From a virus: a DNA stretch of 64,000 bases. Made by a program: the position numbers and the translations under genes. Positions within the stretch are counted from its first letter, which is position 1; each line of letters begins with the position of its first letter. A model generated the notes under the pieces. That model was not told the DNA's origin. It ran no database searches and worked only from the letters and a program-made list of their open reading frames with translations. This document shows positions 12,569 to 53,043 of the stretch, in pieces. Where the stretch lies: IMG/VR virus record IMGVR_UViG_3300023175_001502, positions 1 through 64,000 of that record; one strand, 5' to 3'.

Positions 12569-13278
12569 TGTTTGGCATATTAGGGTATGGATTTGTTGGC
12601 AAAGCAACCAAATTGGGATTAGGATTACCTGACGATACAGTTATACATGATATTAAATTAGGCACAGATAGAAGTGTATTAGACAATGCAGATACAGTGT
12701 TTGTATGTATACCTACTAACACAAAAGATGACATTGATGTTTTAATTAGTGAAGTAGAAAAACTCAAAGCAGACACGGTTATAATCCGTAGTACATTGCC
12801 ACTTGGTACGTGTAAAAAGATAAACAAATCATGCTTAATATACATGCCGGAGTTTTTACGTGAAAGACATTGGAAAAAAGACTGTCTTAATCGTCCTTTG
12901 GTTGTAGGATGTGATAGTGATATTCCGACATGGCTTAGATATGATGAAGACATAATAGTATGTTCTACAGCAGAAGCAGAGCTTGTAAAAATGTTTTCAA
13001 ATAATCTTGCTGTAATCCGTATAGCGTTTGCAAATATATTTTACGATCTAGCAAATAGTGTTGATGCAGACTATAATAATATAAAAGATATGTTTCTTGC
13101 TGTGCAACCAAAACAATCATATTTAGATGTACCAGGGCATGATGGTACTAGAGGATTTGACGGTAAATGTTTGCCAAAAGATTTAGACTTCTTAATATCT
13201 ACATTAAATACACACGAAATAAATTCAAATGTTTTTGAGCAGATAAAAGAACTAAACAAAGGTTGGCGCAATGTATAA
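12568..13278 (+). CDS. short nucleotide-sugar 6-dehydrogenase (UDP-glucose/GDP-mannose type), C-terminally truncated
   Basis: 236 residues. N-terminal 'GILGYGFVGKA' NAD-binding loop, 'VFVCIPTN' and 'IIRSTLPLGT' typical of the family, and the catalytic segment 'GFDGKCLPKD' with the nucleophilic Cys. The family is normally about 390-440 residues; here the C-terminal nucleotide-sugar-binding domain is missing and the protein ends shortly after the central helix. The catalytic Cys is kept, so it may still act on a nucleotide sugar, possibly with a partner, or as a changed oxidoreductase. Shares one base with the preceding stop (TAATG). Confidence 0.75.
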   Translation: MFGILGYGFVGKATKLGLGLPDDTVIHDIKLGTDRSVLDNADTVFVCIPTNTKDDIDVLISEVEKLKADTVIIRSTLPLGTCKKINKSCLIYMPEFLRERHWKKDCLNRPLVVGCDSDIPTWLRYDEDIIVCSTAEAELVKMFSNNLAVIRIAFANIFYDLANSVDADYNNIKDMFLAVQPKQSYLDVPGHDGTRGFDGKCLPKDLDFLISTLNTHEINSNVFEQIKELNKGWRNV

Positions 13279-14257
13279 GTTGGATCAAATAAGAGACATA
13301 CATCTAGAAGTTACTTCACGATGTCAAGCACGTTGCCCGATGTGTCCAAGACGTATGCAAGGCGGTCCTATGATGCCATATGTAACATTAGATGATATTA
13401 CCTTAGAAACATTCAAAGAATGGTTTTCAGTTAGTTTTATACAACAACTTGACAAACTTAATATGTGTGGTAACTTAGGTGATCCTATTATTAATACTGA
13501 AACACTTGACATATACAAATACTTGCGTGAAGTAAATCCTAACATTAATTTACAAATGCATACAAATGGTAGTGCAAGGAATAGTACATGGTGGCAAGAA
13601 CTTGCTAGTGTAGATGTAACTGTAGTATTTGGAATAGACGGACTAGAAGATACACATTCTCGCTATAGAATAAACACAGACTTTCACACTATACTAGAAA
13701 ATGCAAAAACGTTTATTAATGCAGGCGGCAATGCTAGATGGGATATGTTAGTGTTCCGTCACAACAAACATCAAGTAGATGAATGTAGACAACTTGCAAG
13801 TGAATTAGGCTTTAGTGATTTTAAGTACAAAAATTCTAGTAGATTTAAAAATGGCCAATTTAATGTTTTAGATGATACTGGAAAAACAATTGATATTTTG
13901 TACCCTACAGAAACAAGTGAAAGTTTTATAAAAATAGTAGAAGAAGCAAAACAAGAAATAAGCCCAACAATAACTTGCAAAGCACAAAACTCTCAATCTA
14001 TATATGTTGCTGCTAACGGTAACATTGCACCCTGTTGTTGGTTAGATTTAGAATGGCTACCACCAGTAAGTGAAAGTAGAATTGATTACATGGATAAAAT
14101 AGGAAATTTTCCTAATCTTAATAACCATACTTTGCAAGAAATATTTGACAGTAACTTTTTTAGTAGTATCGAAAACACATGGTCAAACGGTTGTTTAAAA
14201 GAATGTCAAAAACAATGCGGCAAGTTTGATAAACTAGGAGCTCAATTTGAAAGTTGA
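13271..14257 (+). CDS. radical SAM/SPASM enzyme
   Basis: 328 residues. 'CQARCPMCPRR' (C18, C22, C25) near the N-terminus; the usual GGEP loop is replaced by 'CGNLGDP'. The C-terminus has the SPASM pattern: 'CKAQNSQSIYVAANGNIAPCC' region, then 'TLQEIF' and 'CLKECQKQC'. SPASM enzymes typically carry two auxiliary Fe-S clusters and modify ribosomal peptides or small molecules. It overlaps both neighbours and is followed by a methyltransferase, a common pairing in modification pathways. Confidence 0.82.
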   Translation: MYKLDQIRDIHLEVTSRCQARCPMCPRRMQGGPMMPYVTLDDITLETFKEWFSVSFIQQLDKLNMCGNLGDPIINTETLDIYKYLREVNPNINLQMHTNGSARNSTWWQELASVDVTVVFGIDGLEDTHSRYRINTDFHTILENAKTFINAGGNARWDMLVFRHNKHQVDECRQLASELGFSDFKYKNSSRFKNGQFNVLDDTGKTIDILYPTETSESFIKIVEEAKQEISPTITCKAQNSQSIYVAANGNIAPCCWLDLEWLPPVSESRIDYMDKIGNFPNLNNHTLQEIFDSNFFSSIENTWSNGCLKECQKQCGKFDKLGAQFES

Positions 14258-14846
14258 TATTGAAGATGTACTGTTTTGGATGGACGCAATTCGTAACAGC
14301 GAAAATCGATATCGTACACTAGAAAGTTTTTGGAAAGGCCAAGTACACAGTAAACTTTGGTTAATAGAACAAATGCAAGAATATAAACTTCAAGGTAATG
14401 TTGCTATTTACGGTGGCTGGAATGGAGTACTTGCAAGTTTACTCTTTAATAGTGATCTTGCAATACCTGAAATAGAAAGCATAGATATTGATCCTGTTTG
14501 TAAAACTATTGCAGAAACTATTAACATGCGTTATCACATGGACGGAAGATTTACTGCCACAACAGCAGATATGTGCGAGTACACTACAGATGCAGATGTT
14601 GCTATTAACACTAGTTGCGAGCATTTAACACAAGAGCAATATGACAAATGGTTAAGTAATATTCAACCAGGTACAAAGGTAGTACTACAAAGTAATAACT
14701 ATGTTGACCTTGATGAACACGTAAGATGTGCAAAAAGTATGGAAGACTTTGTACAGCAATCAAAAGTATATGTTGCATATGTAGGAGAATTTAAAACACC
14801 TAAGTACACAAGATATATGATTATAGGACATAAATTTAATGGGTAA
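14247..14846 (+). CDS. class I SAM-dependent methyltransferase-like protein, TTG start
   Basis: 199 residues. 'VAIYGGWNGVLASLL' (modified motif I) near residue 55, 'ESIDIDPVC' as the acidic motif II, 'DVAINTSCEHL' and 'VVLQSNN' as later strand ends. Start: a TTG at 14247 preceded at good distance by AGGAG (14236-14240); the first ATG would be 33 bases further in and lacks such a signal. Overlaps the radical SAM genes on both sides. Confidence 0.7.
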   Translation: MKVDIEDVLFWMDAIRNSENRYRTLESFWKGQVHSKLWLIEQMQEYKLQGNVAIYGGWNGVLASLLFNSDLAIPEIESIDIDPVCKTIAETINMRYHMDGRFTATTADMCEYTTDADVAINTSCEHLTQEQYDKWLSNIQPGTKVVLQSNNYVDLDEHVRCAKSMEDFVQQSKVYVAYVGEFKTPKYTRYMIIGHKFNG

Positions 14847-16134
14847 AACATTCTGCCCCTTGCCATGGATACATTTGGCAACTAGACCAAATGGCGATGT
14901 AAGAGTTTGTTGTACAGCAAACGCTAGTGGCGCAGGCAAGACTGACAACAAGGAAGTAGGACTTGTTAAACAAGATGGTGTTAACATGAATCTACGTGAT
15001 CATACTATCGAAGAAGTTTGGAATAGTGAGCAAATGCGTAATACTAGATTGCAAATGCTTAATGATGAAATTCCTTTAAGTTGTAAAAAATGTTTTGAAG
15101 AAGAGGCAAAAGGTATAAAAAGCAAAAGGAATTGGGAAACCGAGGTATGGAATGAAAGGATCAATGTACAAGAAATTGTTGATCAAACACAAGAAGATGG
15201 CACGTTGCCTGTAAACATACCTTACTTTGATTTAAGATTAGGTAACCTATGTAATTTAAAATGCATTATGTGTAGTCCGCATGATAGCTCAAAGTGGATT
15301 AAAGATTGGAAATTACAATATCCAAAATATGAACTTATAGATTTGAAACAAGATCAAGGCTGGGATCCTAGTTTTGATTATGTATGGTACAAGAAAAGTA
15401 GTTTCTTAGACTCTGTAAAAAATCAAGCACACTATATAAAAGAATTATATTTTGCTGGCGGAGAACCATTGCTCATACCGGAACATTATGCAATACTACA
15501 ATTTATGATAGACGAAGGTTATGCAAAAGATTGTATACTTAGATATAATAGTAATGCTACAGACATATCACAAAGATTGCTTGATATGTGGGAATATTTT
15601 AAAGAAGTAAAATTTAACTTTAGTGTTGACAGTGTTGGCGAAAAAAATGATTACATAAGACATCCGAGTAAGTGGGATAGTATTGTAGAGAATATGCATT
15701 TACTTGATAATACATCAGATCATATAACTGTTAATCTTGCTTGCGCCGTACAACTTCTTAATGTACACAGTTTAGTAGAACTTGCACAATGGAAGTTAGA
15801 TCAAAACTTTAAAAAAATAAATCGTGCGCCATATGGCGGAGGTATAATAGGGTTACATTTAGTGTACTTACCGTCCTACTTAAATGTGCGAGTACTACCT
15901 CAAGACTTAAAAGCCCAAGCCGCAGATACGATAAGTAAGTTTGCTAATAGTATTAACACACATGAATTTATTAATAATGCTTATGGCAAAATGCGTTGGT
16001 TAGGTTTAGTTGATTACATGAATTCAGAAGATTGGTCACATAAACTTCCGGCGGCTGTACAATACTTAGAAATATGCGACAAAACAAGAGAATTAAACTT
16101 TAGAAATACGTTTAAAGAATTGAGAGATATATGA
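14839..16134 (+). CDS. radical SAM enzyme with N-terminal twitch/SPASM-like domain
   Basis: 431 residues. The N-terminal 90 residues look like a SPASM/twitch module moved to the front: 'FCPLPWIHL', 'GDVRVCC', 'TIEEVWNSEQMR' and 'SCKKCFEEE' (C6, C24, C25, C82, C85). The radical SAM core follows with 'CNLKCIMC' (C138, C142, C145) and 'AGGEPLL'. Same architecture as the proteins at 3461 and 20444. The following gene is a dioxygenase-like gene overlapping by 4 bases. Likely a peptide- or sugar-modifying enzyme; substrate unknown. Confidence 0.82.
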   Translation: MGKTFCPLPWIHLATRPNGDVRVCCTANASGAGKTDNKEVGLVKQDGVNMNLRDHTIEEVWNSEQMRNTRLQMLNDEIPLSCKKCFEEEAKGIKSKRNWETEVWNERINVQEIVDQTQEDGTLPVNIPYFDLRLGNLCNLKCIMCSPHDSSKWIKDWKLQYPKYELIDLKQDQGWDPSFDYVWYKKSSFLDSVKNQAHYIKELYFAGGEPLLIPEHYAILQFMIDEGYAKDCILRYNSNATDISQRLLDMWEYFKEVKFNFSVDSVGEKNDYIRHPSKWDSIVENMHLLDNTSDHITVNLACAVQLLNVHSLVELAQWKLDQNFKKINRAPYGGGIIGLHLVYLPSYLNVRVLPQDLKAQAADTISKFANSINTHEFINNAYGKMRWLGLVDYMNSEDWSHKLPAAVQYLEICDKTRELNFRNTFKELRDI

Positions 16135-16787
16135 CACCTGAAGAAATTGAAAGAGGACTACGTTGGCAAAGTTTAGTCAACTTAGGTAACCAAGTAAAAC
16201 TTAAATGGCATATTGACCATCACCAAGTTGAACAACAATTAGAACAGTTTAAAGATAATTGGTGTCCGTACAATGCTAAAAAAGACACTCACAATAATCG
16301 CTGGGGGTTACCAGTAACAAGTCACACCGGTGATGTTATGGACAATTACCATTTGAATAGTTTTGGTCATATGCAGAAATACCATGACATAGAAATGAAG
16401 GAAGAAAACTTTAACACACCAACAGAGGTGTATAATAATATTCCTGAGCTTGCAAAACTAGTAGATGTTTTTGCACCAGATATTGGTCGTGTACATTTAT
16501 TGCGTGTTGACCAAGGAGGCTTCTTTCCTCCGCACAGAGACTTTCACGGTGTAAGTCCAGAATATTTTAGATTGCTAGTAGTGTTTGGACGTTGTAGTCC
16601 TGAAAATTATGTACAAATGGTAGACGGCAAGCCATTATACCCAGAACCTGGATTTGTTTACTTTACAAACTTTCAATTAGATCACAGTGTGTTTAGTTTT
16701 AGTGATAATCTGTATTCATTAATTTTAACAGTAAAATTAAATGAACGTACACAACAACTAATTTTAAATAACACAATGGCAGAATGA
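16131..16787 (+). CDS. 2-oxoglutarate/Fe(II)-dependent oxygenase-like protein
   Basis: 218 residues. The double-stranded beta-helix iron site can be read as H135-x-D137 ('PPHRDFHG') and a distal H185 ('LDHSVFSF'). The pattern fits aspartyl/asparaginyl hydroxylase-like or other Fe(II)/2OG oxygenases. It sits between two radical SAM genes with 4-base overlaps on both sides. Hydroxylation of an amino-acid or sugar product of the neighbouring enzymes is a reasonable inference. Confidence 0.7.
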   Translation: MTPEEIERGLRWQSLVNLGNQVKLKWHIDHHQVEQQLEQFKDNWCPYNAKKDTHNNRWGLPVTSHTGDVMDNYHLNSFGHMQKYHDIEMKEENFNTPTEVYNNIPELAKLVDVFAPDIGRVHLLRVDQGGFFPPHRDFHGVSPEYFRLLVVFGRCSPENYVQMVDGKPLYPEPGFVYFTNFQLDHSVFSFSDNLYSLILTVKLNERTQQLILNNTMAE

Positions 16788-17707
16788 AACTTTCTTACAA
16801 AGACCCTGCAAAAGAAGATTGGTTTTTAGTTAGTTGGACACTATCTAATAAATGCAATTACCGTTGTTCTTATTGTCCAAGCAGACTTCATGACGGAAGT
16901 ACAGGCCATAAAAAATGGGACACGGTTAAAAATTTTGTAGAAAACTTTGATGCTAATGGCAAACAAATTTGCTATAGGATTTCAGGCGGCGAACCTACTT
17001 ATTGGAAACATTTTATTGACATGGCTAAACTTGTAAAACAACAAGGCCAATACTTTAGTTTTCTAACCAACGCAAGTCAAAAAGTAGAATACTTCGCAGA
17101 GATAACAGAACACACTGACGGAATGATTATCAGTTATCATCCTGAATTTGCTAATATTGATCATATAATAGAAGTTATAAAAGTAATGACTTGTCCTGTT
17201 GCTGTTAATCTTATGATGTTACCTGATAGTTTTGATGAACTATTAGATATTGCAGAACGTTTATTTAATTGTAGCGACAATGTAATGATATGGCCAAAGG
17301 TAATTTTAGATAAACAAGAAATTGAAGGATATCCTACTAACGAAGTTAGTGCATACTCAACATCACAGCAAAACATTATTACTAATTGGCCTTATACACG
17401 TAAATTAGATGATACAAAGTTACACAGAGGCGGCCTACTATTAAATGGTAAAGATATTAATGCAAATGACTTAATAGTTAATGAGCTTAATGCACACAAA
17501 GGTTGGAAATGCTGGGCAGGATTAGATATGATTAGTATTGATATGTGGGGAGACATATACCGTGCCGAGTGTCAGCAAGGCGGCAAAATAGGTAATTTAG
17601 AAAAATATACTTTACCTAATAGTACAATTACATGCGGTAAAGATAAATGTTACTGTTTGAGTGATATATATCTACGCAAAGAGTTGATAGCTACCCAGCA
17701 AATTTAA
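16784..17707 (+). CDS. radical SAM enzyme with C-terminal Cys cluster
   Basis: 307 residues. 'CNYRCSYC' (C24, C28, C31) and 'SGGEPTYW' near 77. C-terminal 'WKCWAG', 'AECQQGGKIGNL' and 'CGKDKCYC' suggest an auxiliary cluster. Paralogous to the enzyme at 11585. Last gene of the first + strand block; its last 36 bases overlap, tail to tail, the end of the beta-propeller gene on the other strand. Confidence 0.8.
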   Translation: MKLSYKDPAKEDWFLVSWTLSNKCNYRCSYCPSRLHDGSTGHKKWDTVKNFVENFDANGKQICYRISGGEPTYWKHFIDMAKLVKQQGQYFSFLTNASQKVEYFAEITEHTDGMIISYHPEFANIDHIIEVIKVMTCPVAVNLMMLPDSFDELLDIAERLFNCSDNVMIWPKVILDKQEIEGYPTNEVSAYSTSQQNIITNWPYTRKLDDTKLHRGGLLLNGKDINANDLIVNELNAHKGWKCWAGLDMISIDMWGDIYRAECQQGGKIGNLEKYTLPNSTITCGKDKCYCLSDIYLRKELIATQQI

Positions 17708-18814
17708 TTCGCTATCAAATATTAACATAAAGTGTTGTCTATCGGCTTTTCTATATGACATACAGCATATTAAATTATTTTTTACATACGGACGACCTAA
17801 CATATAATCAGTAAGATATAATGTTTTTATATTTGTATTTTCATCTACACTCATTATAGGACAACTAGGTGTACCAGATGGAAAAAATATTGCTTTGTTG
17901 TCTAGTGCTACACCACAACGATATCTGTACTTGCCACCAAAGTTAAGACCAATATCAAAAACTTTACTTTCTTTCGTGTCAGTATCAAAAACTACACCCC
18001 AATTACTATCTTGGCTATATTCGTCACCATATGGTAATGCAATTATTTTATTATTAACTAAAACGCCACAATTATATTTTTTAGCAAAGTCATTAGTTAG
18101 TGTTAAATTATGATATATTGCTCTATTAGTAGTTGTATCAAATTCTACGATTTCTGTCATACCAGGCGTTTCGCCGAAAGGCAAACTGTAAAGTGTATTG
18201 TCTTTTACTATTATATCACTAAACTTTCTAGTAATATTACTATTGATGTCTAACTCAAAACTTTCAAAATTATTACCGTCGAAACTTAGTAGTTTGTTAT
18301 ACCCGGGATTATCACCTCTCGGCATACTCCAATATCTGCCATTGCAATATACAGTACCCATATGTAATTTTTTGCCTTCGTAGGGTAGTTTGTGTTCGCT
18401 AACTTTACCTTCGTTAATATACAGTCCGTAGTTAGTATCTTCGTATCCTAAAGGAAAACTAAACGCAGATGTACCGTTTGATGCAATACTGTAAAATTGC
18501 CCTTTGCCTGCAAACGATAATTTGTGATACACTACATCGTTGTCTTTAATTTGTACTACAATATTAAGTTCGTCGTATATGCCGTATGGTATAAGCCATA
18601 AATCGTTATCTAAAACAATAGGAGCATTAGTTTTACTAGTAGCAGGAGGTAGATCTAATTTGATAATATCTTTTTTAAAACGCCAAACATCTGCATACTC
18701 TTTACATTGTTCAGTAGCAAATGGCGGACTTGTTAATATACCATTCCAGTCAAGGAGTAATAAGTGCTTTATGTTTTCTTCTTTGTAGAAATCTTCAAAT
18801 GCTTTATACATCAT
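17672..18814 (-). CDS. beta-propeller repeat protein
   Basis: 380 residues. After an N-terminal segment, about six or seven repeats of 40-50 residues each carry a '[AFM]P[RYF]G[DE]'-type turn (e.g. 'LIPYGI', 'SMPRGDNPG', 'SLPFGETPG', 'ALPYGDEYS', 'FFPSGTPS') followed by a strand with an Asp ('VVFDTDT'). This is the pattern of a kelch/NHL-like propeller. No signal peptide or enzymatic motif. Propellers usually bind ligands or glycans; here it could be a receptor-binding or scaffold protein. Paralogous to the next gene, which lies upstream on the same strand. Confidence 0.6.
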   Translation of the reverse strand: MMYKAFEDFYKEENIKHLLLLDWNGILTSPPFATEQCKEYADVWRFKKDIIKLDLPPATSKTNAPIVLDNDLWLIPYGIYDELNIVVQIKDNDVVYHKLSFAGKGQFYSIASNGTSAFSFPLGYEDTNYGLYINEGKVSEHKLPYEGKKLHMGTVYCNGRYWSMPRGDNPGYNKLLSFDGNNFESFELDINSNITRKFSDIIVKDNTLYSLPFGETPGMTEIVEFDTTTNRAIYHNLTLTNDFAKKYNCGVLVNNKIIALPYGDEYSQDSNWGVVFDTDTKESKVFDIGLNFGGKYRYRCGVALDNKAIFFPSGTPSCPIMSVDENTNIKTLYLTDYMLGRPYVKNNLICCMSYRKADRQHFMLIFDSELNLLGSYQLFA

Positions 18815-20039
18815 TTAAATCTATTGTCCTTATAACTTTTTCAACTTTTGTATCAAATACTAGTACAGTTTGAAAACTCTCACTTTCTCCGTATGGAAAG
18901 GCATATATGATATCGTTAATAATTACACATTGGTTATACTTTTCAATAGTAGTATTATCTGTAAAATATTTACTTACGTCTATGGTATAATGCTCTTCTG
19001 TGTTTGTGTCAATAACTAATATTTCTGCTAAGTCACCTTGGCTTTTCCATGTATCCTCTGGCTCGCAAACACATCCTCCTCTAGGGATATAGTATAACTT
19101 TCCTTTACTGTTCTCAACTCCGGCAAAATATTTTTTACTTTCTTTTCCAATGCCTAAATCTTTAACATACCATTCATCTGTCATACTGTTTATAACAAGC
19201 ATTTCGCTCCAGTCCTCATCGTGGCCTGCTGGCGGAAAAAATATTTTACCATTTTTTGTTACAGTGTGTGAAAAATATTTTCTGCTAGTGCCTGTTTGTT
19301 TGGTTTGTATATATTCCCAACCTTCTTTTCTAATTGCAAGAAGGTCAAATTCTTTATGTTCACAATACGGTGCTGCATACAATTTATCATTTGCTTTTGC
19401 AAGTGTTGTCCATTTTTTATTAGCATGTCTTACGTCTTTATAATCATATAGTATAGGCAACATATCTATTAATTTATAAGTACGATTAAAACAGTCGTAT
19501 TCTATCCTTGAATTAAATGTATTTCCTAAGTTTTCTCCTCGAGGTAAACCGTAAATTATACCATCTAACATTTGGGTAGTATGCCATCTTTTTGTTTCAT
19601 CAGGCAACGCTAAGTGTCTAGTAGTTACATTGTTAGTACGCATATCAATGTCTAGTACATAATTAAATGGTTCGTGCTCGCCGTACGGTAATGCTATAAT
19701 GTGTCTGCCGTATATGTGACCTTGAATATATTTTCCTTGTCCTTTCTTTTCTAAATTTAAGTATTCTATGCTATCGTCATTAGTATCTAATACCAATATA
19801 TTGCTTTCATTGTATGGTAGGAAGTAAATTTTGTTTCTATGTACAATACCCTTTTGCCACTTTTCGGTAGTTGAGTCAACTAATAATGGTATTTTAGTAA
19901 TTGAATGATTAGTTGGATTGTACTTAATCATGTAGTCAACAGATTCAGTAAGGCCGTATGGCGCACAATAAATCATGTTGTTATTTCCAACAGTCGGGTA
20001 ACTAAATGCTTGAGGGGTCAAATTTATCTCCAAATGCAC
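18804..20039 (-). CDS. beta-propeller repeat protein, paralogue of the neighbouring gene
   Basis: 411 residues built of repeats with the same '[YA].[LA]P[YR]GE' turns ('CAPYGLTES', 'ALPYGEHEP', 'GLPRGENLG', 'YIPRGGC', 'AFPYGESES') and 'VLDTNDD' or 'VIDTNTE' strands. Six to seven blades are expected. It overlaps the 380-residue paralogue by 11 bases and the kinase-like gene by 38 bases, so the four - strand genes here form one operon. No export signal; role unknown. Confidence 0.6.
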   Translation of the reverse strand: MHLEINLTPQAFSYPTVGNNNMIYCAPYGLTESVDYMIKYNPTNHSITKIPLLVDSTTEKWQKGIVHRNKIYFLPYNESNILVLDTNDDSIEYLNLEKKGQGKYIQGHIYGRHIIALPYGEHEPFNYVLDIDMRTNNVTTRHLALPDETKRWHTTQMLDGIIYGLPRGENLGNTFNSRIEYDCFNRTYKLIDMLPILYDYKDVRHANKKWTTLAKANDKLYAAPYCEHKEFDLLAIRKEGWEYIQTKQTGTSRKYFSHTVTKNGKIFFPPAGHDEDWSEMLVINSMTDEWYVKDLGIGKESKKYFAGVENSKGKLYYIPRGGCVCEPEDTWKSQGDLAEILVIDTNTEEHYTIDVSKYFTDNTTIEKYNQCVIINDIIYAFPYGESESFQTVLVFDTKVEKVIRTIDLNDV

Positions 20040-20457
20040 TACGTAAGTCTTTTTGCATTTTTTCTATAACTATATGTTTAGGATATACATTGCAATTATC
20101 CCAATCGACCATATACATGTTTTCACCGTTAACAATTATATTACTTAATACCCAGTCGCCATGTACATAGGGTAAAGTCTGCTCAATATTTTCTAAACAA
20201 AATTTATATACTCTTTTTATAAATTCAGGTGTGTGTTCTAGTGTACTTGCTGGAACTCCATCTATTTCTTTTGTGTCTAACCACATAGAATCTTCGTTAT
20301 GTCCGTAGTCTACAACATAGTTAGGAACAATACTGTTTAGCATTTTTACATGTTCATCTAGCCATATCATATCTACAAAATGCCATAGTTTTCTATAGTA
20401 ACCATCGCCTTTGTAAACACTTCGCTTTTTTTGTTTATTTGTTTTAATTAAGTCCAT
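20002..20457 (-). CDS. mini aminoglycoside-phosphotransferase/choline-kinase-like protein
   Basis: 151 residues. The motif 'YVHGDWVLSNIIV' is a Brenner-type HxDxxxxN catalytic loop, and 'MYMVDWDN' supplies the metal-binding Asp of the APH/choline/LPS kinase families. The usual N-terminal lobe is nearly absent, so the protein is about half the family size. Fold could be completed by a partner, or the phage may use a minimal kinase. Sits between the radical SAM gene and the propeller genes. Confidence 0.55.
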   Translation of the reverse strand: MDLIKTNKQKKRSVYKGDGYYRKLWHFVDMIWLDEHVKMLNSIVPNYVVDYGHNEDSMWLDTKEIDGVPASTLEHTPEFIKRVYKFCLENIEQTLPYVHGDWVLSNIIVNGENMYMVDWDNCNVYPKHIVIEKMQKDLRSAFGDKFDPSSI

Positions 20458-21478
20458 ATGCTTTTGCTACCGGAGGTAGGTAATCCTTTATATACATTTT
20501 ACGCCAGCTGTCTAACTTATTAATATTATATTTAAATTCTTCTTGTTTAAGTAGATTAGCAGGTTCATTCATCCATTTATCTACACCTTGAAATTGTGCT
20601 TTCAATTCGTCGGGTGCATTCTTAACATGTAACCAGTCGGGTGTCATGAGTAAATTTTCAAAGACGCTCCAATTACGCTTGTCTGCATATTCTTTTATAT
20701 CATCATAGAACCATGCATTTAAAATACTAATAGTTGGACTTATATCAACCTTACAAAAATCAGCCCAACGTTTTGCATTTTCTTCTGCTTCTTTCCATTT
20801 GGTGCCGTGCCTAATATAGTTTATGCGATCGTCAGTCGCATCTAAACTAAAACTCATAATTACCATATTAAATTTCCTAAGTAATTTTTCTAATTTAGGA
20901 TTCCAAATTGTACAGTTAGTATTAAACCGTATAATTGTTTCTGGACTTAACCTTTCTAAAAAGCGTGGCAAATGTTTTACCATCATAGGTTCGCCGCCGG
21001 TCATATATACTTCGTGTATTGGTAGATCAAGTAATTTATCAAATGCTTTGTCGTCAGCCCAATTAAAGTGTGGAACGTCTAATACGCCATGCAATGGTGT
21101 AACACCTGCTTGGTGCATAGCAACGGCTTCTTCTGCTATTGAACTAGAGCTCATGTGCCAGCAACTAATACATTTTAAATTACAACTATTGCCTAAACGT
21201 AAGTCTAAATGGCTAAGTCCTGGACCGTATCTTCTTTCTTTTTGACGTTGACTTTGTAATCCGTGTTCTTCCATTTCTTTACAACGTCTACAAGCATCAG
21301 GCCATTCACCTCTAGCCATTTGCTCTCTGATACCTCTATGGAATTCACTGTTGTGCCATTCTTGTGGTGTATGTGTTTTGATATTGTATTCGCCTTCGGG
21401 TTCTAAGCTCATACAGCATAATCTATATGATCCGTTGGTGCCAACATTGATTTGATTATCAAGATATTTGCATCTCAC
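20444..21478 (-). CDS. radical SAM enzyme with N-terminal twitch/SPASM-like domain, GTG start
   Basis: 344 residues. N-terminal cluster C3, C21, C22, C63, C66 with 'TPQEWHNSEFHRGIR', then 'CNLKCISC' (C99, C103, C106) and 'TGGEPMM'. Same order as in the proteins at 3461 and 14839. The start is a GTG at 21478; AAGGAG lies 11 bases upstream (21490-21495). First gene of the four-gene - strand operon with the kinase-like protein and two propellers, suggesting these act on the same target. Confidence 0.8.
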   Translation of the reverse strand: MRCKYLDNQINVGTNGSYRLCCMSLEPEGEYNIKTHTPQEWHNSEFHRGIREQMARGEWPDACRRCKEMEEHGLQSQRQKERRYGPGLSHLDLRLGNSCNLKCISCWHMSSSSIAEEAVAMHQAGVTPLHGVLDVPHFNWADDKAFDKLLDLPIHEVYMTGGEPMMVKHLPRFLERLSPETIIRFNTNCTIWNPKLEKLLRKFNMVIMSFSLDATDDRINYIRHGTKWKEAEENAKRWADFCKVDISPTISILNAWFYDDIKEYADKRNWSVFENLLMTPDWLHVKNAPDELKAQFQGVDKWMNEPANLLKQEEFKYNINKLDSWRKMYIKDYLPPVAKAYGLN

Positions 21479-29622: not shown

Positions 29623-30434
29623 AGTAGTCTATCCTTTAATACATCTGCTGTATGTCTATGTACACCTATACCTGGATGGCCTGATATAGTACCGTTTTGT
29701 TTACAAATGTCTCTAGCAAATTTTTCATTATTATCTTCGATACCTAGTAGATCAATATTAATACGTATAATAGGCAAAGTAGTAGGAAAGTAACTAAACA
29801 TAGTTAATGGTATGTTGTTAGTCTTACAAAATACTTCTAACATGTTTACATATATTTCTGCTTCGTTTTGTAAGAAGTCAGTACGTTCTAGTAATTCATA
29901 AGGTTCTACATAATTGCATTTAGGCCTATGACTGCCAGTAAACGTAAAAGCAAAATGATCTGTAAAAAATGTATATCCGTGTGCAGGCGGAAATTCAAAA
30001 CATGCACTTTTTGGAGCACCGTGTAAGTTTACATAATTAAAAAATGATATAACTTGTAGTTTAGTGCTATATGTAGGACCAGCATAACTTAGCATAGGTG
30101 TGTCTAGTTCTTTAGACAATATATCAGTGTATCTATCTTTCTCGTCCACACCAATACCTAAAGTATAACTTGTGCCACTAAAATAAATTAAGTCTTTGGT
30201 TAAATCTACTTCATTAGACATACGTAATCCTAAACTGTTGAAGTTGTAATTAATCTCTTTGTTATTGTATATCCAACTACTATCTTGATATTTTTTGTTA
30301 CGCTCGTGTAGTCTTTCGTTATCAGGTCCGTAGTAATTAGAACTTGTATTAGGAATCATGCTGTCGTGTTGATATGGCCAGTCAGTCTTTTTGTAAAGAA
30401 TAGAAGTATTTAATCTTGTTTTAATGTTAGCCAT
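29619..30434 (-). CDS. SGNH-hydrolase-like protein
   Basis: 271 residues. 'LIYFSGTSYTLGIGV' fits block I of GDSL/SGNH hydrolases with GTS in place of GDS, keeping the nucleophilic Ser; 'LSYAGPTYSTKLQ' fits the Gly block; 'GHPGIGVHRHTADVL' fits block V with a catalytic His, although the expected Asp is not obvious. In phage islands such proteins may remove or transfer acyl groups on sugars. The gene overlaps the oxygenase gene upstream by 8 bases and the adenylation gene by 4. Confidence 0.55.
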   Translation of the reverse strand: MANIKTRLNTSILYKKTDWPYQHDSMIPNTSSNYYGPDNERLHERNKKYQDSSWIYNNKEINYNFNSLGLRMSNEVDLTKDLIYFSGTSYTLGIGVDEKDRYTDILSKELDTPMLSYAGPTYSTKLQVISFFNYVNLHGAPKSACFEFPPAHGYTFFTDHFAFTFTGSHRPKCNYVEPYELLERTDFLQNEAEIYVNMLEVFCKTNNIPLTMFSYFPTTLPIIRINIDLLGIEDNNEKFARDICKQNGTISGHPGIGVHRHTADVLKDRLL

Positions 30435-39937: not shown

Positions 39938-40056
39938 TATAGTCCTGCCTCCCTAGCACGAGTTTCTAAGTCGTTTACTTTTTCCACTTTACGCTCACGC
40001 TGTTCTTGTTTAATAAAATCATCTGGATCAAAAGCATTCTCAAGTCCCCCACGCAT
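39937..40056 (-). CDS. small acidic/basic helical protein, 39 residues
   Basis: Begins 'MRGGLENAFDPDDFIKQEQR' and continues as a charged helix ending 'ETRAREAGL'. A longer frame reaching to 40458 exists, but it runs through queE and its translation there looks like a shadow; I therefore use the ATG at 40056. It overlaps the end of queE by 17 bases and shares one base with the next gene. Function unknown. Confidence 0.5.
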   Translation of the reverse strand: MRGGLENAFDPDDFIKQEQRERKVEKVNDLETRAREAGL

Positions 40057-40924
40057 TTCCGAATAAGTCGATGTGGAGTCTTGGAGTGAAGCGCCATCCT
40101 TTTTCCATACAGAGTTCAGCCACTTCTTGAATGTTGAGCTTGTATTCTTCGCTCCTTCCACCCAGCGGCATAAGATATACCGGACATTCCACCCCGGCGT
40201 TTCTATAACTCTCCACAGCCCTGCCAGCTTCAATAACATCAGTTTCGTCAGCGACAACAAACTTAAAGTAAAGGTCACTACCGTCAACATCGATATACTG
40301 ACTAGCAATATCAGGCTTAATAGCATCTTCCCAGCGTTCTCCGCTAACTGAAAGTTTTGGGGAACAACTCCAAGTAACTCTAAATCTGTCTTGATTGCTG
40401 AGATACTCTTTGAAATCGTCTCGTAAGTTTTGTGTAGTGTTTGTTTCAAATGTAACATTTTTCAAATCCTGCATACGTGGATGTTCTAATAAATCAGCAT
40501 AAAACCTTTGCCATCCTAACAAAGGCTCGCCGCCTGTAAATATTAAATGGATATCTTGTCCATTGTCCATTGTCCACTTGCCTTCTGGAGTAAGTGACAA
40601 TAAATGTTCAACAACTTCATCTACAGTTCTATCCATCATAAACTTTTTAAACTCAGGATAGATACTTGCATATGTATCACAACCTGTATGTATTACAGGC
40701 AAGTCCTCAAACTTTTCAACAGTGTTGATAATATTACTATCTAGTAATTTTTTTACTTCTGGATTATGTTTTACACCATCTGCTCTTGCAGGTGTTCCAC
40801 GTTCTAATCCAAAGTTCATACAACGAAAGTTACAACCAAATGTACGTAGGAACACACTAGGTACTCCTACAAACTTTCCTTCACCTTGTACACTATAAAA
40901 TGCTTCTGAATAACGTAGTTTCAT
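40040..40924 (-). CDS. queE: 7-carboxy-7-deazaguanine synthase (QueE) with a long loop between cluster cysteines
   Basis: 294 residues, radical SAM. 'FYSVQGEGKFVGVPSVFLRT' is the QueE N-terminal signature. The cluster cysteines are C31 and C35 ('GCNFRC') and C82 ('GCDTYAS'), a CX3CX46C spacing where ordinary QueE has CX3CX2C or CX14CX2C; the CDTYAS part aligns with the normal third Cys. 'FTGGEPLLGW' follows. It converts 6-carboxytetrahydropterin to CDG in the preQ0 pathway. FolE is encoded immediately upstream (6-base gap). Confidence 0.85.
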   Translation of the reverse strand: MKLRYSEAFYSVQGEGKFVGVPSVFLRTFGCNFRCMNFGLERGTPARADGVKHNPEVKKLLDSNIINTVEKFEDLPVIHTGCDTYASIYPEFKKFMMDRTVDEVVEHLLSLTPEGKWTMDNGQDIHLIFTGGEPLLGWQRFYADLLEHPRMQDLKNVTFETNTTQNLRDDFKEYLSNQDRFRVTWSCSPKLSVSGERWEDAIKPDIASQYIDVDGSDLYFKFVVADETDVIEAGRAVESYRNAGVECPVYLMPLGGRSEEYKLNIQEVAELCMEKGWRFTPRLHIDLFGNAWGT

Positions 40925-40930: not shown

Positions 40931-41620
40931 CTACTTTCCACAACTAAATTCTTGTTGTAATTTAATATTGTCAAAGAACTCTTTCTTTGTACCAGGATCA
41001 TTCTTAAATGCACCTTTTAGTACAGTAGTCTGTGTCAATGAACTAGTTGCCATTATGCCTCTATTCTCACAACAACCGTGTGTTGCTTGAATATAAACAC
41101 CTAAGTGATCTGCATTAGTTGCAAGTTGAATTTGTTTTGCAATTTCATTTGCAAGTTCTTCTTGTAGTGTACCACGTCTAGCACACCACTGTGCAATACG
41201 TGTATACTTTGAAAGACCGATAAGTTTTGCACTTGCAATAATACCAATATACGCTACACCGCTTACTGGTTGATGATGATGCGAACATACACTTTTAAGT
41301 TCGCTACGTACAACTAGCATACCTTCGTAGCGTTCATCGCTATCGTTCGGAAACGCTGTTGCACTAGGAATAGTATCATAACGTCCAGCCATTAGTTCAT
41401 TAAAGTACATTTTAGCAAGACGTCTTGCTGTACCTTGTGAATTAGGATCGTTATGTCTATCAATTAGCAACGTATCTAAAACATTTTCAAATGCTACAGT
41501 TGCTTCTTCAATAAGTTCTTCTTTGTCGCCTTTCTGAAATACTTCTGAAATGTTGTCACCTGCCCAATAGCGGATACCAGCATCTTTAAGACGTACAGTT
41601 AATTCTTTACTTTTGCTCAT
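40931..41620 (-). CDS. folE: GTP cyclohydrolase I
   Basis: 229 residues. 'SVCSHHHQPVSGVAYIGI' and 'LIGLSKYTRIAQW' are family signatures; zinc ligands are the Cys and His of CSHH and the Cys in 'THGCCENRG'. It makes dihydroneopterin triphosphate from GTP, the first step to both folate and preQ0. In a phage with QueD-like and QueE proteins the latter is likelier. It has its own perfect sigma70-like promoter. Confidence 0.88.
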   Translation of the reverse strand: MSKSKELTVRLKDAGIRYWAGDNISEVFQKGDKEELIEEATVAFENVLDTLLIDRHNDPNSQGTARRLAKMYFNELMAGRYDTIPSATAFPNDSDERYEGMLVVRSELKSVCSHHHQPVSGVAYIGIIASAKLIGLSKYTRIAQWCARRGTLQEELANEIAKQIQLATNADHLGVYIQATHGCCENRGIMATSSLTQTTVLKGAFKNDPGTKKEFFDNIKLQQEFSCGK

Positions 41621-41925: not shown

Positions 41926-42303
41926 TTATTTTTTGTAGTTGCCTTTGCCCGGTATTACATTACGTACACCACCAACAGGGTCCGGACAATCCCCATCTCT
42001 ACGGAATATTAAATGTACGTGTGGATACATGCATGTTTGTCCTGCACTAGTACCTATATTTAGACCAATGTTGAACCCTGTAATGTTATTACTGGCTTCT
42101 ACATTTTGTTGTCCCATAGCAAGTGCAAACTTAAAACATTTTAGTAAATTTTCTTCTGTAGATTCCTTAGGTACAACAAGAGTATGCCCGTCTGTAACAG
42201 GAAACCCATCTTCATAAACAACAAAGTCTCTTGTGTTTAAAGAAACAGTAGACCATGGTGCTCTATTTTCTTGTTGTGCTAGTTCTAAGTTATCTACTTT
42301 CAT
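41926..42303 (-). CDS. HIT-family nucleotide hydrolase/transferase
   Basis: 125 residues. 'DGHTLVVPKEST' and 'FNIGLNIGTSAGQTCMYPHV' lead to 'YPHVHLIFRRDGD', the HIT site. The central catalytic His is kept, while the first His of HxHxH is replaced by Tyr. Family members hydrolyse dinucleoside polyphosphates or AMP derivatives. The start at 42303 forms an ATGA overlap with the phosphoribosyltransferase gene. Confidence 0.78.
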   Translation of the reverse strand: MKVDNLELAQQENRAPWSTVSLNTRDFVVYEDGFPVTDGHTLVVPKESTEENLLKCFKFALAMGQQNVEASNNITGFNIGLNIGTSAGQTCMYPHVHLIFRRDGDCPDPVGGVRNVIPGKGNYKK

Positions 42304-42857
42304 TGTCCTACATTCTCCCACGGATAAACTAGCCAAACATCTTCTTCTGCTTTATTAACTTCGTGTACACTGTAGTCTACTGTGCCCTTAAACTCACTAG
42401 AAAGATTATCAGTAATAACCGCAAATCGAACATTACGATGCCATACACTATCCCATCCACTTGTTTCTTGCGGTAGACAACTACTCATCCAATCTTGTTT
42501 GATCCAATTTAATGTTGCACCTGTGTCATTGATGTCGTCTACAATAAGAATGTTTTTACGTTTGTTTAAGTCCCAACGACTTTTAAGAATTTTACGTTCT
42601 TCTTCATCTACATAACCAAATGCATCTTCACTCATCCAACAGTTAGATTCGCATTCGCTATCATCGTCACGCAAACTAACTTTAAGTGCTTCGCAACGTA
42701 TACCTAACATATGTGATAATATAGTAGCGGGAATATTGCCGCCACGTGTAATGCCTACGATGTAATCAGGCTTCCAATTGTCATTGTACATTTGCAATGC
42801 AATACTTAAACATGCACGTTCAATATCTGCCCAATCATAATACTGTTTTTTAACCAC
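42300..42857 (-). CDS. purine-type phosphoribosyltransferase
   Basis: 185 residues. PRPP loop 'ILIVDDINDTGATL', substrate strand 'DYIVGITRGGNIPATIL', and a C-terminal 'VWLVYPWE' typical of xanthine/guanine-type phosphoribosyltransferases. I prefer a GTG at 42857, which has GAGAGGT 6 bases upstream; the ATG at 42872 lacks one. Guanine salvage would feed GTP to FolE; this link is inference. Confidence 0.78.
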   Translation of the reverse strand: MVKKQYYDWADIERACLSIALQMYNDNWKPDYIVGITRGGNIPATILSHMLGIRCEALKVSLRDDDSECESNCWMSEDAFGYVDEEERKILKSRWDLNKRKNILIVDDINDTGATLNWIKQDWMSSCLPQETSGWDSVWHRNVRFAVITDNLSSEFKGTVDYSVHEVNKAEEDVWLVYPWENVGQ

Positions 42858-43122
42858 GCTGTGACCTCTCATAATTTTGTAGTAATTCTTCAGTTTTTAT
42901 CTTGCTTCCAAGAACTCTTTTTCTTCCATCTGAACATGTACGATGTATTAGTCCACTGTTATATTCAATATCAATAACACTTCCGTTTTCTGTATCTTCA
43001 GGAAAATTATCGTAATGCATAGAATCTATTCTATGTGCATGAATTGCTTTTACAGTGTTAGCCCATTCCTCTGCAGCTAGTTGTAAACGTCTCCTTTCTA
43101 CTAAATCATCATACTGGCCCAT
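42850..43122 (-). CDS. small conserved phage protein
   Basis: 90 residues; an Arg-rich N-terminal helix and a beta-type C-terminal part ('VIDIEYNSGLIHRTCSDGRK'). Overlaps the phosphoribosyltransferase gene start slightly. No motif recognised. Confidence 0.55.
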   Translation of the reverse strand: MGQYDDLVERRRLQLAAEEWANTVKAIHAHRIDSMHYDNFPEDTENGSVIDIEYNSGLIHRTCSDGRKRVLGSKIKTEELLQNYERSQRG

Positions 43123-46410: not shown

Positions 46411-46613
46411 TATCCTAGGTCCTTCAATTCTGTTTCAAGCCTGTGTATTTCATCTTTGAGCCAAAGTTTTTTAGTTTTTTTACGGTTAATCTCTCCATCA
46501 TTTGCAAACTTATTGTACAACTCTTTTATTTCGTCGTCAAGTAATCTGTGACGTTTATACAACTCTTGCAAATAATTTGCAATTTTATTGTGCTTCTCCG
46601 TGAAGTTGCTCAT
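46410..46613 (-). CDS. small coiled-coil phage protein
   Basis: 67 residues, a nearly continuous charged helix ('NYLQELYKRHRLLDDEIKEL'), likely a coiled coil. The ATG at 46613 has GAGGT upstream. It overlaps the end of the preceding gene. Function unknown. Confidence 0.6.
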   Translation of the reverse strand: MSNFTEKHNKIANYLQELYKRHRLLDDEIKELYNKFANDGEINRKKTKKLWLKDEIHRLETELKDLG

Positions 46614-47163
46614 CTTCAAGTACCTCTAATTTTGATTCGTCTAGCTCTTCATCTTCAGTTGAAACAGTAGGTTCAACTTCAAATAAACTATCAAAGTATG
46701 TACTAGAGTTGACAGTCTTCTTACCAACAGCACCTCTAGTACCTATAATAGACATCCAAAAACGGCTAAATTCTTCTATTACCGCTTCTGCTTCATCTCT
46801 GTTGTCAGTTGCAAATATTGCTTCCACAACATCTCTAAAAAATACCCTGTCAAAGCGTTCTTCAACAAGCATTGCCGGTATAATTCCATTGTCGTACTGT
46901 CTATTTGCTTCTTGTACAGCATTAATATGACTCCAAACATTATGGCCCATTTGAATAGCATATGAAAAACTATCCCAGGAGGTCTTTCCTTCTTTACCTA
47001 TTTTGTTTAAATCACCAGGTGCATATGTACATACATCTGATACCTTAAGTCCAGTAGTTAACGGACTATCTTCGAAGTTAGCAAAAATACCATCTTGTAA
47101 TACAGCATCTCTAAATAATCTGCTGTCAGTTGCATACTTTTTATTATCAACAGACGGAACCAT
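46585..47163 (-). CDS. C-terminal part of the TGT/DpdA-like transferase, out of frame with the N-terminal part
   Basis: About 192 residues from 'MVPSVDNKKYATD', with 'APGDLNKIGKEGKTSWDSFS' and 'MGHNVWSHINAVQEANRQ', segments that read as a continuation of the TGT-like protein rather than a separate enzyme. This frame is open from 47250, but no Shine-Dalgarno sequence precedes a usable ATG. It ends with an acidic tail. Either a +1/-2 frame change joins the two parts, or the gene is broken by a small indel, or it is an assembly error. Confidence 0.6.
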   Translation of the reverse strand: MVPSVDNKKYATDSRLFRDAVLQDGIFANFEDSPLTTGLKVSDVCTYAPGDLNKIGKEGKTSWDSFSYAIQMGHNVWSHINAVQEANRQYDNGIIPAMLVEERFDRVFFRDVVEAIFATDNRDEAEAVIEEFSRFWMSIIGTRGAVGKKTVNSSTYFDSLFEVEPTVSTEDEELDESKLEVLEDEQLHGEAQ

Positions 47164-48124
47164 TATAAACCCATTTGCTTCTATCTTGGGTTTCATTTTG
47201 AATATAAATCTGTCCGTTTGCTGTAGCAAGAAACGGTGAAGCACAATCAAATGTAATTTGGAAGTTTGGATTGTGATACTTACGAACAGCTCGTTGAACG
47301 TCTGTTAGTAATGTAGCCCATTCTAGTTTCGAAGTACCTAAGAAGTGCATTACGTCATGCACACCCTTTTCCAATAGTCCGTCAAACCTCAATGCAACTA
47401 GACGTTTAAGAACCAAATGAATGTCGCACATGTTCTGTCCACCCATTGACCAACCGTTAAAATGGTCAGTATATTTTTTAGGATCACAGTAGTCTTTCAT
47501 TTGCTGATACCAATCCTCTGCATCAGCATGATTTTCACCTTGTAAAACATTTAAGAACTTACAAGCACCTGTTCTATGCTTCATCCAATAGTCGTTATTA
47601 ATACGTGTAGCATTTACAGCATCTTGATAAGTGCTAATACCTGTTGCTTTTGCACCTGCAGGTGAACGTGAAACCCAAGCAGGAATATCAAGTATCATAC
47701 CGTAATCCATATAAGCATCCATCCAACGGAGAACGCCGTCACGTTTCTTTTGTGCTTTTGGACAGTTTGGATCTTTCCAGTCACCTTCCCATACACCTTT
47801 ACCAATTTGGAAGCCACCCGAGTCGCCCAGTAGCCAAGTATTTTCTCTATCTCTGTTTCGCACCATATCTTCTTTAGGTGCGTGTTTGTTGATGTCTAAT
47901 TCAGCGTGTCCTGCTGAATACAGTGTCCATTTGTATTGGAATTGACCTTCTTGTTTGTTAAGATAGTTTAAACTCTCTACACCGTTAGCAAAGTTGCTAG
48001 GAATACGTGACTTATCTACATATTCATCAAAACGTTGCTTACCTACATAAGTTGCATAGAAACCACTTAGTGCAGGAAGAAAGATCGCATAATCGTTTTG
48101 TGTTGCTGTTAAGTCTTTATTCAT
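47147..48124 (-). CDS. TGT/DpdA-like transglycosylase, N-terminal and catalytic part
   Basis: 325 residues. 'LLGDSGGFQIGKG' is the tRNA-guanine transglycosylase signature including the catalytic Asp of the DSGGFQ motif; 'MILDIPAWVSRS', 'GWSMGGQNM' and 'FDCASPFLATANGQIY' are further TGT-type pieces. Phage DpdA proteins of this family insert preQ0 or derivatives into DNA. The reading frame stops soon after 'SKWVYN', with the expected continuation in another frame (46585-47163). With FolE, QueD-like and QueE proteins it forms a DNA 7-deazaguanine module. Confidence 0.75.
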   Translation of the reverse strand: MNKDLTATQNDYAIFLPALSGFYATYVGKQRFDEYVDKSRIPSNFANGVESLNYLNKQEGQFQYKWTLYSAGHAELDINKHAPKEDMVRNRDRENTWLLGDSGGFQIGKGVWEGDWKDPNCPKAQKKRDGVLRWMDAYMDYGMILDIPAWVSRSPAGAKATGISTYQDAVNATRINNDYWMKHRTGACKFLNVLQGENHADAEDWYQQMKDYCDPKKYTDHFNGWSMGGQNMCDIHLVLKRLVALRFDGLLEKGVHDVMHFLGTSKLEWATLLTDVQRAVRKYHNPNFQITFDCASPFLATANGQIYIQNETQDRSKWVYNGSVC

Positions 48125-48127: not shown

Positions 48128-48856
48128 TTACTTGCTCTGTGCTGGAAGAATGTAATCGTATTTTACCATGCCGCTATCTACTGAAATCATCATAGCACCT
48201 TGATCCGAAATGCTCATAGTAATATCACCATCTAGATTAAGAATACTTTGAACTTGTGCTACTGGCCAACTCCAAGTGTGTTGAAGACTACCTTCTACAC
48301 CGTGCTGGAAAACAAACTCACCTGCGTGTGTGCTTGCATCACCAAAGCTAAACACTAGATTATTATCCTTAGTAGTAACATTAAATGTAGGCTCTTCACT
48401 GTGTGCCGCACTCATTAGTTTCATACGTGCAATACTTGCAACACTAGGACTAAATGTTACATTCCATGATGCACCTTTGAACTTAACAGTTTTAAGTTTT
48501 TCCTCAATAATTGCTTTGTTCATAAAGCGGTAATCATTTTGGAAATCGCCTGCAGCGTTTTCAAAGTGAATGTGTGTAGGAACAACTTCACCGTTACGTT
48601 CTGCTTCAACTACTTCTAGTTTAGCATCTTTTTGGTATTCAGGATTTTTTAAATGCAATGCAAGTTTATCCAAATTAGGCATACCAAACGTGCCTTTAAA
48701 TTCTGCTACAGGTGCATTTGTTTCACCTGATAAGATAACAGATCTATCATCTGCCATGCTTTCAACTGATGTACCTTCATCACTATTAATTTTAACTAGA
48801 TTCAAAAAACCTAGTGCATGTGTATGAGCTACAATGTCTTGTAAAATATCTTTCAT
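48128..48856 (-). CDS. 45: DNA polymerase sliding clamp (gp45-like)
   Basis: 242 residues, somewhat longer than T4 gp45 (228). It has the clamp pattern of repeated beta-alpha-beta halves, with 'HLKNPEYQKDAKLEV' and a C-terminal 'MVKYDYILPAQSK', and resembles cyanophage gp45. A trimeric ring holding gp43 on DNA is expected. A perfect sigma70-like promoter precedes it with an 18-base leader. The clamp-loader genes are not in the window. Confidence 0.8.
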   Translation of the reverse strand: MKDILQDIVAHTHALGFLNLVKINSDEGTSVESMADDRSVILSGETNAPVAEFKGTFGMPNLDKLALHLKNPEYQKDAKLEVVEAERNGEVVPTHIHFENAAGDFQNDYRFMNKAIIEEKLKTVKFKGASWNVTFSPSVASIARMKLMSAAHSEEPTFNVTTKDNNLVFSFGDASTHAGEFVFQHGVEGSLQHTWSWPVAQVQSILNLDGDITMSISDQGAMMISVDSGMVKYDYILPAQSK

Positions 48857-50373: not shown

Positions 50374-53043
50374 TTACTCTCCAAAGTCAAACAAACTGTT
50401 AAATGTATTGTGTTGCTTTGTATCTTCTAGCGGATAGTCTAACACACCAATTAAGTTTCCAAGTTTGTTATCGATAATTGTTTCTGCCATTGCTGAATCA
50501 TCAAATGGCAGTTCTTTAAACCATTCAGGAATACGCAGCTCATCTGTTGGATAAGCGACACTTGTATAACCTAAAGGATTCTGTTTTAATTTGCATACAA
50601 TAACTTTCATACCATCTACAATTTCTTGCGAATACTTGTCACCGTTCATACGTTTTAGTGTATTCCAGTTGATGCTTGCTCGTACGTGGCCTGGCATATT
50701 TGCCTTGCCTTGTTTTTGCTCTAGTCTCTGATAGTGTCCAATCTTGTTTGCACGTTTAGGCGAACCTTTCTCCCAACCTGGACGATTTTCAAACTCTTTT
50801 CTAAATACAGTTATACGTTCAAGTACTTCTTCTTGTGGAACATCTGTAAGCACCATAAGAAGAATTTCACTTAGAAACTCTTGCATAAACACAGGAGTAT
50901 CTGAACGCCTCAAGTCTAAGCCCATTGCTTTTACTTTGCCTGGTTTTCCATCTGTGTCTGTTCTAAAGCCTTCGTTATCATAAACTAGTGCCGCATAACG
51001 CTTCTTAGTAATATACAGTCCGCTTTGTGCTACAATTTCTCTACCAGCGGCAATAACTTCTGCACGACTTTTTGGACAATGAAATGCTTCACCCATAAAG
51101 TCTGAAAATGTAGTATTAGCCGCTTCGCAAACTTGATCATACAGTGTTACCACAGTATCTTTATCAAAAGGAATTTTTCCTTCGTCAATATCATCTTTTA
51201 ATACAGGATATGCACTAAAGTAAACCGAGTCTGTATCACCGTATATAATTGCTTTGCCTACATGATCGTATTCACCTGTAATTACTTTGTTTACTTCTGC
51301 ACTCATATGTTTAACAATAGTACGACCAGTAAGTGTAGTTGATTGTCCTATCCTTTTGTCAAAAAATCTGCAACCAGGATTAAGAATGGCCCCGTAAAGA
51401 GAGTTAAGATTAATTTTCTTAACAAGTTGCCGTTTGTCCCAAAATGCAATTTCAGTTTCATTGCCTGCGTCTTTTGCTTTTTTGAGCATACCTTGTAGTT
51501 CTTTACGTTCTGCATACCACCTCTTTAGTAGTCCGGGAATAACTCCTTCGAACTCAGTTGTAAATATTGTACCATTAGATGAAAGCATCCAAGGTTGATT
51601 ACTATCGAAAATTAGTTTATATAATTCAGCACCGCTTAATACATCGCTGGTTCCGTTTTCCCAATCCACAGTTAGTGCAACATCACGCTTCTGTTCCATA
51701 ACAGCTTCATATTCTTCTGTGCTAAATCGTCCTTCCCAACTACCTGCAAATGACTTCTTTTTAAGTGTCATATCTTCGTGTACACGGGCTTCTGATATCT
51801 CTGGACGTATTTGTCCTATGATTGTTTCTGGAGCCATGTTCAGCGCACGAATCACACTAGGATATAGACTGTTCAAGTCCATTGACCCAATCCATTTATG
51901 CAAGCCTTTTTTAGGAAACGCAACATATGCACCTGCGGCTTGTGTGTTCTCATCATCACGTCTAGGACGATTAGGAACTTGTAAGCCTCTGTTATGTGCT
52001 TCGTTTACAATCGCTTGCTCTGTAACAGCAACAGCACCCATTGTAGTTTGTAGTAGTACAGTATTTGCATGAGCAAGTTCATTGCTAAGATCAATAAAGC
52101 GTAGCTTCTTGTCTAGTTTGTCTAGTAGTGCGGTATCTTGTATGTTATATTCGATAAATTTGCGGAAGTCATTGTTGTATAATTGATCTAATGTACCTTC
52201 ATATGGTACTTTGTTTTCGCCTACTTCAATCTCACCAATAGCATCCAATCGATATGAGTGTCGTTCTTCGTATGTGTACTTACGATATAGTTCTAGACTG
52301 TCTAAATGCACACGACCTACTAAGTCAAATGTTTCTGCTTGCTTCCCATATTTTTCATATTCACGCTTCTTAGGAAGTTGTCCCCACAAACAAAAACGTC
52401 TTGTATCATCTTTGCTGAGTACACGACTTGTTCTGTTTACAGTGTAAGGAATATCATAACCCTCACTGTTCCAACCTGACAAAATATCAGCATCTTCAAT
52501 CAGCGTTAAGAACGTGTCGATCATATCACCTTCACGTTCAAACAGCATTACATTTTCGATACCTTCAAGTTCTTTCTTTGCCTGCTCCATTGTAAGTGTC
52601 TTAGGCGGAACAGCAAGACAAACCATAGTTTCCATCCATTGCAAGTATACAGATATGGATGTAATGGGCATAAACGGATCACTAGGATCAGCAAAGCCTC
52701 GCTCCGGGTCAAAGTCTGTTTCAATATCGAAAAACGCAATGTTTAGTTTAGGAGCATCTTGGTTGAGATAATTCTCACTTAGACATTGAAAGATCGGATT
52801 AATATCGCTTTCAAAAAGTTCTTTGTTTTTATTGATGGCAACTTCTTTGCGGAAGTCTTTTGTGTTTTTACAAACAATACGTGTTAGGGGATCTCCGTAC
52901 ACACTTTTGTACTTACCACGCTCGTCTTTGTAGTAGAATGTGTACTTTGCTTGATACTCGTGAAAGTGTCTCTTTCCATCTTTACGCTCTACAACTCTGA
53001 TGATATCAGAATCGCGATCAAACATAGCGTCAACGTAACTCAT
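50374..53043 (-). CDS. 43: family B DNA polymerase (gp43-like)
   Basis: 889 residues, near T4 gp43 (898). Exonuclease motifs: Exo I 'IAFFDIETD' (D106, E108), Exo II 'LSGWNSEGYDIPY', Exo III 'YNIQDTALLD'. Polymerase motifs: A 'SMDLNSLYPSVI', B 'KKINLNSLYGAILN', C 'IIYGDTDSVYFSA'. The C-terminus may hold the clamp-binding peptide ('NTFNSLFDFGE'). No intron or intein. CGAAGGAG precedes the ATG, and a hairpin (53086-53105) lies in the leader. Confidence 0.93.
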   Translation of the reverse strand: MSYVDAMFDRDSDIIRVVERKDGKRHFHEYQAKYTFYYKDERGKYKSVYGDPLTRIVCKNTKDFRKEVAINKNKELFESDINPIFQCLSENYLNQDAPKLNIAFFDIETDFDPERGFADPSDPFMPITSISVYLQWMETMVCLAVPPKTLTMEQAKKELEGIENVMLFEREGDMIDTFLTLIEDADILSGWNSEGYDIPYTVNRTSRVLSKDDTRRFCLWGQLPKKREYEKYGKQAETFDLVGRVHLDSLELYRKYTYEERHSYRLDAIGEIEVGENKVPYEGTLDQLYNNDFRKFIEYNIQDTALLDKLDKKLRFIDLSNELAHANTVLLQTTMGAVAVTEQAIVNEAHNRGLQVPNRPRRDDENTQAAGAYVAFPKKGLHKWIGSMDLNSLYPSVIRALNMAPETIIGQIRPEISEARVHEDMTLKKKSFAGSWEGRFSTEEYEAVMEQKRDVALTVDWENGTSDVLSGAELYKLIFDSNQPWMLSSNGTIFTTEFEGVIPGLLKRWYAERKELQGMLKKAKDAGNETEIAFWDKRQLVKKINLNSLYGAILNPGCRFFDKRIGQSTTLTGRTIVKHMSAEVNKVITGEYDHVGKAIIYGDTDSVYFSAYPVLKDDIDEGKIPFDKDTVVTLYDQVCEAANTTFSDFMGEAFHCPKSRAEVIAAGREIVAQSGLYITKKRYAALVYDNEGFRTDTDGKPGKVKAMGLDLRRSDTPVFMQEFLSEILLMVLTDVPQEEVLERITVFRKEFENRPGWEKGSPKRANKIGHYQRLEQKQGKANMPGHVRASINWNTLKRMNGDKYSQEIVDGMKVIVCKLKQNPLGYTSVAYPTDELRIPEWFKELPFDDSAMAETIIDNKLGNLIGVLDYPLEDTKQHNTFNSLFDFGE

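Follow-up and report, generated by a model that had tools for sequence, protein, structure and literature searches.

Does this phage record carry a TGT/DpdA-like gene that is truly divided between two reading frames, or a single gene whose frame has been broken? The window, that is, the whole stretch of DNA that was analysed, comprises positions 1 to 64,000 of the 118,904-bp IMG/VR record IMGVR_UViG_3300023175_001502. The split between two frames described in the first-pass annotation is confirmed in the sequence, and the gene is on the minus strand, a detail missing from that annotation. The catalytic frame (frame 1) runs from an ATG at 48124 to a stop at 47147 and encodes 325 amino acids ending in DRSKWVYNGSVC, with the stop five codons past SKWVY. 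Frame 2, on the same strand, spans 47250 to 46585 as an open frame, with MVPSVDNKKY encoded from 47163. The overlap between the frames is 104 bases (47147-47250), against the 100 first reported, and the reported lack of a ribosome-binding site is borne out: none of the five candidate starts of frame 2 (TTG 47250, GTG 47244, TTG 47229, ATG 47196, and ATG 47163) has a convincing Shine-Dalgarno sequence.

Comparison of the query protein with IMG/VR identified at least 598 stretches encoding relatives, and in the best 80 of these at least 598, which were kept, the gene is in a single frame wherever the contig reaches the junction. Relatives align to frame 1 through residue 320 and then to frame 2 from its residue 28, as one uninterrupted protein; frame 2 is open up to 47250, yet the relatives match it only from 47163, and the breakpoint is at 47163/47164. 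At the junction, 78 relatives have W[VT]YRM, then one of V, Q, S or L, and finally PS. Since relatives match both frames as one protein, MVPSVDNKKY is the true continuation of the catalytic frame, as had been expected, and a chance juxtaposition of unrelated open reading frames is rejected. The parts of the gene are as follows:

47147 to 48124, minus strand: 5' part of the TGT/DpdA-like gene; residues 1-320 are genuine, and the final five residues and the stop are out of frame.
47824 to 47807 (DSGGFQ), 47551 to 47531 (NVLQGEN), 47347 to 47330 (HFLGTS) and 47254 to 47231 (TFDCASPF), minus strand: motifs of the 5' part.
46585 to 47163, minus strand: 3' part of the gene, in the other frame; a C-terminal, mostly helical region and a low-confidence tail.

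A further scan, for which a member with 76% identity served as query, and two MAG contigs enlarged the sample to 161 viral or MAG loci. A single open frame is present in 157 of them (118 distinct sequences), the other four being cut by contig ends, and a split gene occurs in none of the 157 assessable loci (118 distinct sequences). The alignment of relatives that had been proposed in the first-pass annotation thus returns one frame in 157/157 assessable loci, and two separate proteins, the arrangement that it had raised for the relatives, are not what they show. More distant homologues, at 30-38% identity, in Pseudomonas phage PA5oct, Sinorhizobium phage Phosso and Vibrio phage 2.275.O are likewise all single long genes; they are annotated only as hypothetical proteins, and those phages are much larger. 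Scans of viral contigs found no relatives of the PA5oct and Vibrio phage 2.275.O proteins. The same TGT/DpdA-like gene is found on contigs L196 (PBPT01000016.1) and L197 (PAOW01000007.1), binned in a Neomarinimicrobiota MAG and a Euryarchaeota MAG, respectively. Both are probably phage contigs, and their binning is possibly a hint at the host.

Near-identical contigs were found with a gapped pattern able to match the junction in its short as well as its long form. All four contigs detected (metagenomes 3300023108, 3300023119, 3300023178, and 3300018426) have the long form and none has the short. They are 99.75-99.94% identical to the window over the compared stretch, where the sole length difference is at the junction, the window being 2 nt shorter. 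The four are separate assemblies that possibly belong to one sampling series, so the populations are perhaps not fully independent. Because both the relatives and the near-identical copies are intact, we read the locus as a single gene. We are fairly confident that it is one continuous TGT/DpdA-like phage gene of ~513 codons, split by a 2-nt deletion that is private to this record and is most likely an assembly or consensus error. On the evidence of the compared sequences, the split does not reflect the biology of the gene.

Programmed ribosomal frameshifting (+1 or -2) would fuse the two frames into one protein, and it would account for the overlap of 104 bases and for a joined product that is the full-length enzyme. 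Inspection of the junction by eye revealed neither a slippery sequence nor a stimulatory element. The shift is absent from all relatives, that is, from 157 single-frame loci that include 99.9%-identical genomes, and with the frame change conserved in 0/157 loci and the near-identical copies intact, we consider frameshifting refuted and give it almost no weight. A false candidate for programmed frameshifting is thereby eliminated. The chance that the enzyme consists of two subunits made from separate cistrons is similarly negligible: the second frame does contain start codons, but it lacks a convincing ribosome-binding site, a two-protein arrangement is seen in no relative, and the predicted structural model places the junction within a single chain, between strands 305-309 and 321-324. 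The same intact relatives and near-identical copies refute this arrangement. Among the four options offered in the first-pass annotation, the programmed shift and the two-subunit protein are therefore contradicted (157/157 single frames, four 99.9%-identical contigs intact), whereas a recent mutation and an assembly error remain, with the assembly error favoured.

The longest sister contig, G004 (3300018426), is 151,964 bp in length and aligns with ~109.8 kb of the record. Over this distance there are only two indels, both of them 2-nt deletions private to the record and both frame-breaking. SNPs relative to G004 comprise six clustered between 45229 and 45313, one at 47214, and six at the extreme end of G004. 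The features in question are:

47163 to 47164: 2-nt deletion private to the record (at 47164 in the G004 comparison), with the long form in the four near-identical contigs and in all relatives.
2501 to 2502: second private 2-nt deletion, which truncates the gene starting at 2008 (2008-2511); this gene is intact in G004 and in contig L104.
45229 to 45313: cluster of six SNPs in 85 bases, differing from all four sister contigs, with flanks otherwise identical.

The continuation of the gene at 2008 past 2501/2502 sits in another frame of the window, and L104, which is otherwise identical across 2,849 bases, does not have the deletion. A strain bubble or a small patch of recombination probably accounts for the SNP cluster, which also fits consensus errors in this contig.

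A baseline was obtained from 14 pairs of relatives that are nearly identical; over 96,346 aligned bases they differ by 129 SNPs and 6 indels, or ~20 SNPs per indel, and 12/14 pairs have no indel at all. The record, with two frame-breaking 2-nt deletions and almost no SNPs, is the reverse of this baseline, and we therefore favour an assembly or consensus error. The consensus of this contig would have dropped two letters at 47163/47164, which would make a one-piece gene look split, and we infer an origin of the deletion in assembly, not in a virion. A genuine 2-nt deletion of recent origin, carried by a fraction of the virus population and truncating the enzyme after residue 320 with loss of the C-terminal region and probable inactivation, is an unlikely though credible alternative. 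A private change in a near-clonal genome does look like a recent mutation, and the truncation would leave the catalytic motifs while removing a conserved C-terminal region in which W384, D385, N396, and V397 are invariant (40/40 aligned members). A recent mutation would, however, require two independent frame-breaking 2-nt deletions in ~110 kb where SNPs are almost absent, contrary to the ratio seen in near-identical relatives, and in a strongly conserved gene whose frame is uninterrupted in every relative. As a point against an error in assembly or consensus, the two deletions (47164 and 2501/2502) share one short local context, a possible sign of a systematic cause; modified DNA that misleads sequencing would be one such cause, a speculation drawn from two sites. 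Since this record has two or more private frame-breaking deletions of 2 nt, further genes in it that are claimed to be split or truncated should be compared with the sister contigs.

Pfam, PHROGs, NCBIfam and PADLOC contain no model that matches the joined protein, PF01702 hits neither the window's record nor G004 at E ≤ 1, and sequence searches of the PDB gave chance matches only. Although those models miss the protein, fold and profile comparisons support the TGT/DpdA-like label of the first-pass annotation, which holds at superfamily level as judged from a predicted structure and from alignment. An intact copy is carried by contig L002 (99.9% identical); modelled with AlphaFold2 on 37 relatives (pLDDT 75, pTM 0.79), it has a predicted TGT-type (beta/alpha) barrel fold. 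Five PDB fold matches were found at E ≤ 0.001, and these are only TGT, DpdA (7ui4), and archaeosine TGT; Foldseek matches in BFVD are phage TGT-like proteins, including the DpdA2 protein of Vibrio phage nt-1 and annotated queuine transferases. TM-scores are modest (0.3-0.5). D101-Q106 (DSGG[FL]Q) and D293 (I[TS][FY]D) are invariant in a 40-member alignment and are aligned with DpdA2; by analogy with TGTs, these residues would be catalytic.

The best PDB fold matches are bacterial TGT (4q4p, 2z1x) and archaeosine TGT (1j2b), with E values of 2.6e-5 to 1.7e-4. The window protein has in common with them DSGGFQ and the conserved Asp in TFDCASPF, but it has no PF01702 match, and the CxCx2C-type cysteine cluster is absent from the intact protein. 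DpdA, the DNA preQ0 insertase (PDB 7ui4), is a fold match at E 9.1e-5, but its TM-scores are low (0.32/0.38), identity is 14%, and it is unrecognisable by sequence. DpdA2 was defined from phage nt-1 and reported to be undetectable by PSI-BLAST starting from the DpdA of phage 9g (PMC6884629). The nt-1 DpdA2 protein (YP_008125322, phrog_10773) shares the TGT-type fold (R9TGF0, Foldseek E 5.4e-9), and the profile of a DpdA2 alignment matches that of the window family with 94.9% probability and an E value of 4.6e-8 over 202 columns, spanning the DSGG[FL]Q, QG[EN]N, H-LG, and I[TS][FY]D motifs. In contrast, the nt-1 protein has no BLAST similarity to the window protein (BLASTP E 0.70), and the window family has no PHROG match, so that the kinship with DpdA2 is at profile and fold level only. 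The intact gene is worth annotating as a member of a common viral TGT/DpdA-like family that has no model in the libraries searched.

The window and the remainder of the record also encode steps of 7-deazaguanine synthesis, and two further genes lie near the TGT/DpdA-like gene:

40931 to 41620, minus strand: FolE (GTP cyclohydrolase I), the first enzyme of 7-deazaguanine synthesis.
40040 to 40924, minus strand: QueE-like radical SAM protein (phrog_2076, E 3.3e-50).
111,629 to 111,994 of the record: QueD-like match.
48128 to 48856: phrog_12062 protein (function unknown in PHROGs), preceding the TGT/DpdA-like gene.
50374 to 53043: DNA polymerase gene.

The phrog_12062 neighbour is present in 79 of the loci searched for it. 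A weak match to the nt-1 QueD at 30141-30284 (E 0.047) was dropped, having no PHROG support. Neither the window's record nor G004, both of which are possibly incomplete, yielded QueC or QueF. FolE is present in both nt-1 and the window's phage, whereas QueC is present in nt-1 and was not found in the latter. The homologue in Vibrio phage 2.275.O is followed, two genes downstream, by a gene for 7-cyano-7-deazaguanine reductase.

The intact enzyme is probably part of a pathway that modifies DNA with 7-deazaguanine; it would replace guanine in the DNA of the phage itself by a 7-deazaguanine supplied by FolE, QueD, and QueE. Tentatively, and with some doubt, we suggest that the intact gene represents a widespread phage subfamily, undescribed by Pfam, PHROGs, NCBIfam and PADLOC and distinct from DpdA and DpdA2, that may place 7-deazaguanine in phage DNA. 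Because FolE, QueD, and QueE are present and QueC was not found, the base would perhaps be 7-carboxy-7-deazaguanine or one of its derivatives; alternatively, the last step would perhaps fall to the host. Close to folE and queE, a phosphoribosyltransferase-domain protein is encoded at 42300-42872. The first 21 kb of the window contain six radical SAM domain matches (3860-21043), which is dense for a phage.
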